NCBI GenBank assembly: GCA_002702725.1 | Contig: PABE01000152.1 | Location: 1 to 64,000 of the forward strand | Reading direction: 5' to 3' | Source: Porticoccaceae bacterium | GTDB lineage: Bacteria; Pseudomonadota; Gammaproteobacteria; Pseudomonadales; Porticoccaceae | DNA: 64,000 nucleotides | In this document: positions 9,367 through 11,619 of the stretch, piece by piece | How the letters are laid out: each line of letters opens with the position of its first letter | Numbering within the stretch: position 1 is the stretch's first letter | Translations under genes and position numbers: made by a program | Notes under the pieces: model-generated | What the model was told of the DNA's origin: nothing | The model's database searches: none | The model's input: the letters and a program-made list of their open reading frames with translations, nothing else

Positions 9367-10245
9367 TCAATGATCGCGGGAGACAATGAAATGGGCGATT
9401 TCCGTCAGACAGTCGGCACGACTGCCAAAGATTTCCAGGGCCTGAAGACTCTGTTCGTGCAGTTCGTCCAGTTTTGCTTTGGCGCCTGCGAGACCCAGCA
9501 GTGATGTGTAGGTGGGCTTGTTGAGTGCGTTATCAGCACCCTGGCGTTTGCCGAGCACCTCGGTGCCGCTCTCAACGTCAAGAATGTCGTCGCGCACTTG
9601 AAAAGCGAGGCCAATGCTTCGGCTGTAGTCCCGCAAAGCGGATAGTTGGGGCGCCGTCGCTGATCCGGTGGATAGGGCGCCGAGTTCGATGCTGGCATCG
9701 ATGAGGGCACCGGTCTTGGCCCGATGCATCGCTTCAAGATTCGATAACTCGAGGTGGCGGTTAACGGCAGCGAGATCCAGGGCCTGGCCGCCCACCATCC
9801 CTGATGGTCCCGAGGCGCGGCTGAGGCATGCGAGCATTGAGAGTTGCAGGCCGGGGTTGAACGTGCCATTGCTCAGGACATTGAATGCCAGCGCCTGCAG
9901 ACCGTCGCCGGCCAAAATGGCCGTGGCTTCGCCAAAGGCGATATGGCATGTCGGTTTGCCTCGGCGCAGGTCATCGTTATCCATGGACGGCAGGTCATCA
10001 TGGATGAGTGAATAGGCGTGAATCATTTCCACCGCGCAGGCGGCCCTGTGGGTAAGGGGGCTGGGTGTTCCGATCAGTTCCGCTGCGGCATAGCACAGGG
10101 CCGGTCGTATGCGTTTGCCGCCGTTAAACAGGCTATAGCGCATGGCCCGGTGGAGTGAGGTATCGCCCTCGGGAAGCAGTTGTTCCAGATACTCGTCGAC
10201 TTGCCCCTGGCAGCGCTTTAGGAAAGCAGTCAGCCCCGTCGCCAT
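9367..10245 (-). CDS. ispA: Farnesyl/geranyl diphosphate synthase
   Basis: A trans-prenyltransferase of 292 residues that condenses DMAPP/GPP with IPP to farnesyl diphosphate, feeding quinone and undecaprenyl synthesis. The first aspartate-rich motif DDLPSMDND is at residues 83-91. The second (QVRDDILDVESG) is near 220. NGGKRIRPAL at 41-50 binds IPP. Its start codon overlaps the xseB stop by one base, so it is translationally coupled. dxs follows downstream. Confidence 0.95.
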   Translation of the reverse strand: MATGLTAFLKRCQGQVDEYLEQLLPEGDTSLHRAMRYSLFNGGKRIRPALCYAAAELIGTPSPLTHRAACAVEMIHAYSLIHDDLPSMDNDDLRRGKPTCHIAFGEATAILAGDGLQALAFNVLSNGTFNPGLQLSMLACLSRASGPSGMVGGQALDLAAVNRHLELSNLEAMHRAKTGALIDASIELGALSTGSATAPQLSALRDYSRSIGLAFQVRDDILDVESGTEVLGKRQGADNALNKPTYTSLLGLAGAKAKLDELHEQSLQALEIFGSRADCLTEIAHFIVSRDH

Positions 10246-10517
10246 TAATCGTTTTCCGGGGCGTCGAAGGGTTGCGTTTGCCGATCGCCGTCCTGGTTGC
10301 GCGTGAGTATCTCAACCCGCTGTTCCGCCTGGCTTAATGCTTCCTGGCACTGGCGGGTAATCCTGATGCCTTCCTCGAAGGCCTTGAGGGAGTCTTCCAG
10401 GCTCAGGTTCCCTGATTCCAGGGCAGTGACCAGTTTTTCCAGTTCAGCGAGGTCGCGCTCGAAGTCAGGGGATTTTTTTCGCGTGGCCAAGGATGGTGTC
10501 TCCGGGTTGAGGTGCAA
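10245..10517 (-). CDS. xseB: Exodeoxyribonuclease VII small subunit
   Basis: A 90-residue small subunit of exonuclease VII, which with XseA degrades single-stranded DNA from either end. [43 protein letters not shown] is the classic two-helix hairpin with the LExGxLxLExSLxxFExG pattern at about residues 19-60. The tail is hydrophilic and variable. It is first in the xseB-ispA-dxs operon; xseA is not in this window. The small RNA locus lies immediately upstream on the other strand. Confidence 0.95.
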
Positions 10518-10555: not shown

Positions 10556-10573
10556 TGTAGGAAATATCCTACA
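10556..10573 (+). promoter_or_regulatory. GacA-type upstream activating palindrome
   Basis: TGTAGG-N6-CCTACA, with perfect arms extending to 7 bp (TGTAGGA / TCCTACA). It resembles the TGTAAG-N6-CTTACA upstream element bound by the response regulator GacA ahead of RsmX/Y/Z RNAs in Pseudomonas. Its centre lies about 65 bp before the expected RNA start, the spacing known for those promoters. A -10-like TATCTT is at 10618-10623. Assignment to GacA is by similarity. Confidence 0.78.
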
Positions 10574-10628
10574 AGAAAAGGAGATTTCTCCCAATAGGCG
10601 GGGAGGCTGCACTAGCCTATCTTAGACA

Positions 10629-10784
10629 CTGCAAGGATGCAGAAGCGCAAGGATGTGCACCACCCTCAGGGACCGAAACGGATTTCGAGACCAAGGACGA
10701 AGGTGGAATCGCTTATCAGGAAGATCAGCAATCTACACTGCTTTTTGCGCCCTGGCACATGATGTGCAGGGCGCTTGTTTTTTT
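10629..10784 (+). ncRNA. RsmY/RsmZ-like small RNA (CsrA/RsmA-sequestering)
   Basis: A likely 150-nt RNA starting about 6-8 nt after TATCTT and ending at the terminator T tract. In the stretch before the terminator I count seven GGA motifs, at 10635, 10651, 10670, 10680, 10695, 10705 and 10719. Several sit in the AAGGA or CAGGA context favoured by CsrA/RsmA (GCAAGGATGC, GCGCAAGGATG, CCAAGGACG, TCAGGAAG). Together with the GacA-type palindrome and the strong terminator this matches the RsmX/Y/Z class, which titrates RsmA to free target mRNAs under GacS/GacA control. There is no plausible protein in it. Exact ends and the protein partner are inferred; gacA and rsmA are not in the window. Confidence 0.78.
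10747..10784 (+). terminator. Rho-independent terminator of the RsmZ-like RNA
   Basis: GCGCCCT (10747-10753) pairs with AGGGCGC (10768-10774), with an inner GCACAT/ATGTGC extension after a one-base bulge. The run TTGTTTTTTT follows. It is among the strongest terminators in the window and faces away from xseB, confirming a plus-strand transcript. Confidence 0.9.
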
Positions 10785-10833: not shown

Positions 10834-10861
10834 TTGACCGGCCGCCCGGCCGGAGTAATAT
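10834..10861 (+). promoter_or_regulatory. Sigma-70-like promoter with a palindrome in its spacer
   Basis: -35 TTGACC (10834-10839) and -10 TAATAT (10856-10861) are separated by 16 bp. The palindrome CCGGCCG-CC-CGGCCGG (10838-10853) fills the spacer, a position where a bound repressor or activator could control the promoter. It drives the RNA region that ends at 11020 and possibly the HNH gene beyond it. Confidence 0.6.
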
Positions 10862-10866
10862 GTTTC

Positions 10867-11020
10867 CGGTATGGTTTTTCCGGTGAGGTCCGTCTTCAAC
10901 CCGCTGATTGGATTTAATTTGTTGAAGTACCGCGCACTCCAGCTTGAGTTTGTCGCCTGGAGAGTGGGCGAGTCACCCCGGAATTTGAAAGCCCTGTGGT
11001 CGTTGGACGCAGGGTTTTTT
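10867..11020 (+). ncRNA. Candidate structured RNA or HNH-gene leader, family unknown
   Basis: About 150 nt between a good promoter and a rho-independent terminator. It folds by eye into successive hairpins: CCGG/CCGG (10866-10883), CTTCAAC/GTTGAAG (10894-10900 with 10921-10927, a 20-nt loop containing GGA), CTCCAG/CTGGAG (10937-10942 with 10957-10962) and the terminator stem. A 61-codon reading frame crosses it (10871-11056), but it has no convincing ribosome binding site and runs through the terminator. It could be a free small RNA or an attenuated leader of the HNH gene, which begins 33 bp after the T tract. I do not recognise the family. Confidence 0.5.
10992..11020 (+). terminator. Rho-independent terminator before the HNH gene
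   Basis: CCCTG...CAGGG (10992-11014) extends by a T-G wobble and a G-C pair to a 7-bp stem and is followed by six T residues. It lies ahead of, not after, a coding gene, so it terminates a short upstream RNA or attenuates transcription into the HNH gene. Confidence 0.75.
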
Positions 11021-11052: not shown

Positions 11053-11619
11053 GTGACGCCGCTTATATTGCGATTGAACGCGGCAGGCCAGCCCATAGAG
11101 TGGTTGGAGTGGCAGGAAGCGGTTTGCCTGCATGCCCGCGACCTCGTCATTTGGACCCTGGGGGACGTGGTTCACCGCGTTCGTGGCGGCTTCTCGCGTT
11201 TTACCGGGCGCCAGTCGACCATCGAGTTGTCGAGTATCATAGCCTGCGGCGGGGAGCGCCTTGCAAAACCCCGGGTGCGGTATCCGTTATCGAATCCCAC
11301 GCTGTTTGCCCGCGACCAGCATACGTGTATGTATTGCGCCAATCGATTTCACTCCAAACAGCTTACCCGGGATCATATTGTGCCCCTGTCACGGGGTGGT
11401 CTCGACCGGTGGGAAAATGTCGTCGCAGCCTGCAGGCGATGTAATCAGCACAAGGCGGACCGCCTGCTTGAAGAGATCAGCATGCAGCTGGTGGCGCTGC
11501 CCTACCGGCCAAATAATGCCGAGTACCTGGCGCTGCTCAATTCACGTCGGATTCTCGGTGACCAGATGGCATTCTTGCGCAATCAGTTTTCCAGGAATGG
11601 GGCCCGCCAGTTTTCCTGA
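11053..11619 (+). CDS. HNH endonuclease family protein
   Basis: A 188-residue protein with a C-terminal HNH nuclease domain. CMYCANRFHSKQLTRDHIVPLSRGGLDRWENVVAACRRCNQHKADRL holds the paired CxxC zinc ligands and the HNH residues (DH, N, N-H-K) at about residues 94-140. The N-terminal half (LILRLNAAGQPIEWLEWQEAVCLHARDLVIWTLGD) matches the stand-alone gammaproteobacterial type. I chose the GTG at 11053 because GGAG lies 9 bp before it; a longer frame from 10996 would start inside the terminator. The biological role of this family is not established. Confidence 0.85.
   Translation: MTPLILRLNAAGQPIEWLEWQEAVCLHARDLVIWTLGDVVHRVRGGFSRFTGRQSTIELSSIIACGGERLAKPRVRYPLSNPTLFARDQHTCMYCANRFHSKQLTRDHIVPLSRGGLDRWENVVAACRRCNQHKADRLLEEISMQLVALPYRPNNAEYLALLNSRRILGDQMAFLRNQFSRNGARQFS

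Follow-up and report, generated by a model that had tools for sequence, protein, structure and literature searches.

What is encoded in the gap between xseB and an HNH endonuclease gene, in a 64-kb stretch of DNA from a member of the Porticoccaceae (the window, meaning the whole stretch of 64,000 nt that was analysed)? No substantial reading frame covers the gap, the largest + strand frame that overlaps it being 53 aa long, and an initial annotation that had pointed this out proposed the small RNA (sRNA) of a Gac/Rsm circuit. That proposal is supported here. We conclude, with a probability of roughly 93%, that positions 10629-10784 are a GacA-activated sRNA that sequesters CsrA/RsmA. The assignment to the Gac/Rsm (BarA-UvrY/Csr) system follows from the anatomy of the locus, its conservation at the xseB flank, compensatory changes in the hairpins, a genome that encodes every protein partner, and a presence/absence pattern coupled to GacA. 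The features are:

10245-10490, - strand: xseB, the divergent neighbour (Pfam PF02609); likely start TTG 10490, inferred from relatives
10556-10573, + strand: putative GacA upstream activating sequence (UAS), TGTAGG-N6-CCTACA; perfect palindrome, its position shared by 21 family genomes
10574-10598, + strand: linker from the UAS to the core promoter, AAAA ... TTTCTCCCAATAG; conserved in alignment A1
10618-10623, + strand: probable -10 element TATCTT; aligns with CATTATG in many relatives
10629-10784, + strand: predicted Rsm/Csr-type sponge sRNA (GGA motifs, hairpins, terminator, conservation); start inferred to within a few nt
10629-10642, + strand: hairpin 1, CTGCA-AGGA-TGCAG, predicted CsrA site (fold; pair covariation)
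10645-10658, + strand: hairpin 2, GCGCA-AGGA-TGTGC, predicted CsrA site (fold; pair covariation)
10674-10687, + strand: hairpin 3, CGAAA-CGGA-TTTCG, probable CsrA site (fold of 10629-10745; relatives by eye)
10747-10784, + strand: intrinsic terminator, GCGCCCTG...CAGGGCGC then a T-rich tail (fold; similar terminators in relatives)
11053-11619, + strand: HNH endonuclease-domain gene (Pfam PF14279/PF01844); likely start GTG 11053, not 10996

On the promoter side, the GacA-type palindrome described in the initial annotation is perfect: TGTAGGAAATATCCTACA spans 18 bp at 10556-10573 with no mismatch and corresponds to the equivalent GacA palindrome TGTAAG-N6-CTTACA (PMC4950607). It is the single exact occurrence of TGTARG-N6-CYTACA in the window, where approximately 0.17 occurrences are expected at up to one mismatch. 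Its centre lies at about -65 relative to the inferred RNA start, and the -10 element reported at a suitable distance is TATCTT. No recognisable -35 was found ahead of this hexamer, as expected if the promoter is activator-dependent. The linker in alignment A1 reads AAAA...CAATAG, with columns A39, T40 and G42 (numbered on the first sequence) almost invariant. The palindrome alone is not diagnostic, given that 25 of its 30 matches across the sequence collection lack a GGA cluster (at least four ANGGA downstream), which 5 possess; UAS-like palindromes are also seen in unrelated bacteria. A loose scan of the organism's whole genome (up to three mismatches) returned 448 places per strand, below the reversed control, and is by itself useless for locating the sRNA. 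Elsewhere, a GacA-like palindrome followed by AAAA recurs as a conserved element without a GGA cluster in several Polynucleobacter loci (e.g. L022, L024, L034). At two Dokdonella loci (L023, L048) the same palindrome precedes ANGGA motifs at +75, +112, +124, +136 and +148, a pattern that makes an Rsm-type sRNA probable there.

The RNA itself is approximately 156 nt long (about 10629-10784) and contains seven GGA motifs, five of them ANGGA, in agreement with the earlier description of an RNA of about 150 nt with seven GGA in a CsrA/RsmA context. Dinucleotide shuffles contain a mean of 1.0 ANGGA (p about 0.001 for five), and nowhere else in the window, on either strand, does a 117-nt segment reach five. 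Hairpins 1 and 2 are found in both the minimum-energy (MFE) and centroid folds, and their GGA motifs are unpaired with a probability of 0.89-0.99. Hairpin 3 is less stable once the full-length RNA is folded than in the fold of 10629-10745, and similar third hairpins are seen by eye in relatives; its GGA and the one at 10719 are mostly exposed (unpaired probability 0.6-1.0). The expectation that the GGA motifs lie in hairpin loops therefore holds in part: three sit in loops of 5-bp hairpins and about four of the seven are clearly exposed in this single-sequence fold, but the other three are mostly paired. GGA motifs in loops with at least five closing pairs number three, against 0.44 in shuffles (p=0.008), and the folding energy of the whole RNA is modestly unusual (z -1.9 versus shuffles). 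The hairpins are ACANGGAUGU-like and resemble the SELEX consensus for CsrA, RUACARGGAUGU (PMC7652899). The strong terminator noted earlier is likewise present in the fold, with a GC-rich, bulged stem at 10747-10774 followed by a T run; a simple terminator scan did not list this stem, probably because of the bulge. Judged from its sequence, the sRNA would be transcribed as a free, non-coding RNA that ends at a terminator of its own.

Relatives had been suggested as a place to look for a UAS and GGA cluster at the xseB flank, and the unit is indeed found there in 21 of the 37 genomes of the family Porticoccaceae; the flank was read in 30 genomes, and every one of the 21 carriers belongs to the window's own family. 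Because these 21 were initially chosen partly for a UAS-like palindrome, the conservation of the UAS is biased by selection, whereas the GGA spacing is unbiased: in 19 of the 21, the ANGGA of the first hairpin falls at UAS+76-79 (nt counted from where the palindrome begins). The conserved parts of alignment A1 are the palindrome, the linker, the -10 region (CATTATG in many) and the two GGA hairpins. In these hairpins 79% of the alignment cells are paired and 21 cells have changes on both sides, giving a stem covariation score of 0.262 against a shuffle mean of 0.129 (0 of 500 shuffles reach 0.262); shifting the partners by one to three columns makes the score collapse. The 21 RNAs together contain 118 ANGGA, against 26 in shuffles (maximum 39); of these, 47 occupy loops with four or more closing pairs, against 4.3 in shuffles (maximum 10). 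The sequence between the hairpins is strongly divergent across genera, and the GGA hairpins are retained. As the RNA diverges fast, plain DNA similarity recovers only 5 genomes, own included, compared with 21 by reading the xseB flank. A covariance model, R1, was trained on the 21 family copies and is therefore bound to match them; its informative results are that only one real copy exists in the organism's own genome, the absence of matches in genomes that lack GacA, and matches in other families.

The gene neighbourhood matches the earlier statement that the sRNA adjoins isoprenoid genes and not rpoS or fdxA: one flank is always dxs-ispA-xseB, and in most genomes the opposite flank has the HNH gene. 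In other families of the same taxonomic order, G170, G051, G252 and G047 have model matches near xseB or ahead of the HNH gene, which makes it probable that the location is older than the family. A literature search by title and abstract found no relevant paper tying xseB to CsrA sRNAs. For the HNH gene, GTG 11053 is the likely start in place of 10996, given that the alignment with most relatives begins at residue 19-24 of the longer frame. The stretch that separates this gene from the sRNA contains a second conserved non-coding unit, 10834-11020. This unit comprises a sigma-70-like promoter (TTGACC-16-TAATAT at 10834), a leader of 100-200 nt with a CYTTCAA-like conserved motif whose TTC does not vary among nine aligned genomes and, immediately ahead of HNH, an intrinsic terminator. 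An Rfam search of this unit gave no match, and its layout suggests an attenuator leader for HNH or else another sRNA.

The 21 RNAs differ widely in size, with lengths taken from an automatic terminator search in which some of the longer RNAs may end at an early T run. The smallest are approximately 124-125 nt with 4-5 GGA (G011, G029, G021), three are approximately 245-260 nt with 12-14 GGA (G018, G007, G034), and the largest is approximately 340 nt (341) with 19 GGA (G002). These long members are near the size of enterobacterial CsrB/CsrC (CsrB, RF00018), and three long family members match the CsrB model below threshold; the window copy, with 7 GGA, is less than half that size. With the RsmX, RsmY and RsmZ RNAs of Pseudomonas (RsmY, RF00195, and the RsmZ family) the sRNA shares an 18-bp GacA palindrome and a short GGA-rich RNA with some GGA in hairpin loops, the Pseudomonas RNAs having 6-10 GGA with a subset in loops (PMC4950607, PMC7911923). 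It differs from them in its half-sites (TGTAGG/CCTACA, not TGTAAG/CTTACA), in lacking an Rfam match and in lying between dxs-ispA-xseB and the HNH gene instead of beside rpoS or fdxA. A further CsrA-type sRNA of a marine gammaproteobacterium, CsrR2 of Alcanivorax dieselolei, has six unpaired GGA (PMC9788540) and adjoins a ferredoxin gene like rsmZ, unlike the window sRNA beside xseB.

The Rfam search recommended earlier did not bear out a family assignment: neither at the gathering threshold nor at E<=10 did the window copy give anything relevant, and no RsmX/Y/Z or CsrB family recognises it. Searching 20 related loci (19 relatives at the xseB position and the paralogue locus L125) at E<=1 gave four matches, all in the CsrB/RsmY clan. 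CsrB matched three times, at the sRNA position of L096, L093 and L101, and RsmY once, at L125. Scores were 22-27 bits against gathering cut-offs of 57-71, and none passes. Since no score exceeds its cut-off, membership in the Rfam CsrB, RsmY or RsmZ families (clan CL00106) does not follow, and the sRNA is placed in a functional class and not in an existing family. On sequence grounds it is very probably an uncatalogued addition to the well-known class of GacA/UvrY-controlled RNAs that sequester CsrA/RsmA.

All protein partners are encoded in the genome. The GacA/UvrY orthologue lies directly upstream of uvrC and shares 43% identity with UvrY of E. coli; a BarA/GacS-type kinase has the order sCache_4-HAMP-HisKA-HATPase-REC-Hpt (the Hpt match is just sub-threshold); and there are two CsrA proteins. 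A third CsrA-domain protein is a CsrA-receiver fusion (PF02599 + PF00072; L012:1501-2079, G000:C79), and the next gene encodes a membrane protein resembling, by eye, a HAMP/SpoIIE-type phosphatase. Counting as GacA orthologues matches at E 1e-59 or better, and classing weaker matches (26-34% identical; genus g10 and others) as other response regulators, 20 of the 37 family genomes have both sRNA and GacA, 15 neither, 1 the sRNA only and 1 GacA only (Fisher 2.6e-8, a test that ignores shared ancestry). The sRNA-only genome, G016, in which GacA was not detected, is a fragmented assembly of 580 contigs, and the GacA-only genome, G022, is also missing the xseB region. Several genomes with neither GacA nor the sRNA, e.g. 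in genus g10, keep CsrA, so the loss there is specific to the Gac-sRNA arm.

Additional GacA-type loci occur in relatives. Genus g11 has an extra paralogous UAS plus GGA-cluster sRNA elsewhere in the genome (L122, L125, L133; G011, G029, G021), and G012 carries a second, tandem UAS-like element and GGA-rich RNA after the xseB-flank sRNA (L129, G012:C2:40147-40260). In G011 and G029 a gene for a protein that looks ComEA-like by eye (L123, L126) has a GacA-like palindrome and the same linker ahead of it, and its leader carries AAGGA/ATGGA motifs; the arrangement suggests a direct protein-coding GacA target. A TGTAAGATATWTCCTACA palindrome adjoins gacA on its upstream side in G011, G029 and G021 (L124, L127, L128), and possibly serves autoregulation or control of the divergent gene.

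Three other explanations were weighed, each of which we regard as very improbable. The sRNA lies on the same strand as and upstream of the HNH gene, an order kept in most relatives, and might be a cis-acting 5' leader whose GGA motifs place the HNH mRNA under CsrA control, with no free sRNA. However, the RNA stops at a strong terminator at 10784, HNH seems to be served by a promoter of its own and preceded by a leader with a further terminator, and in five genomes (G002, G007, G018, G026, G034) the RNA adjoins xseB and the region examined yielded no HNH gene. The RNA is thus not part of the HNH gene, which from the sequence appears not to be its partner.

It is just as improbable that another regulator binds the palindrome to serve xseB or both flanks, the GGA cluster being incidental. 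The 25 collection palindromes without such a cluster would fit this idea, but the conserved bases reach toward the sRNA side, the spacing from palindrome to GGA is fixed, and the unit is missing where GacA is missing. Nor is there much to be said for a base-pairing (Hfq-type) sRNA that happens to contain GGA motifs: the Rho-independent terminator with a U tail would suit one, and some sRNAs are bifunctional, but the GGA hairpins persist between genera while the sequence around them diverges, and the length ranges from about 125 to about 340 nt.

For the GacA-activated, CsrA-sequestering sRNA, we infer transcription, GacA binding at the palindrome and CsrA sequestration from a mechanism modelled on RsmX/Y/Z and CsrB (PMC4950607, PMC7911923, PMC7652899). 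A stimulated BarA/GacS kinase would phosphorylate GacA, which would then bind the palindrome and turn on the weak promoter that lacks a good -35. The resulting transcript of about 155 nt would display several ANGGA motifs, of which no fewer than two, and probably three, lie in tetraloop hairpins matching the CsrA site, and by binding CsrA dimers through these hairpins would free CsrA-repressed mRNAs.

In this family, whose members are mostly uncultured gammaproteobacteria, the sRNA would supply the RNA component still missing from the Gac/Csr circuit, at a locus where annotation that relies on Rfam sees nothing and where the xseB flank provides an anchor for locating it in relatives. We raise tentatively, as somewhat less probable than its contrary, that within this one family a single orthologous locus has shifted between RsmZ-like (about 125-160 nt, 4-9 GGA) and CsrB-like (about 340 nt, 19 GGA) sizes, so that sponge capacity may evolve not through gene duplication alone but also through the gain of hairpins at one locus, and that in one genus GacA also gained paralogous sRNAs and possibly direct protein-coding targets. 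The size range of the family offers a natural series for testing how the number of GGA motifs sets CsrA titration.
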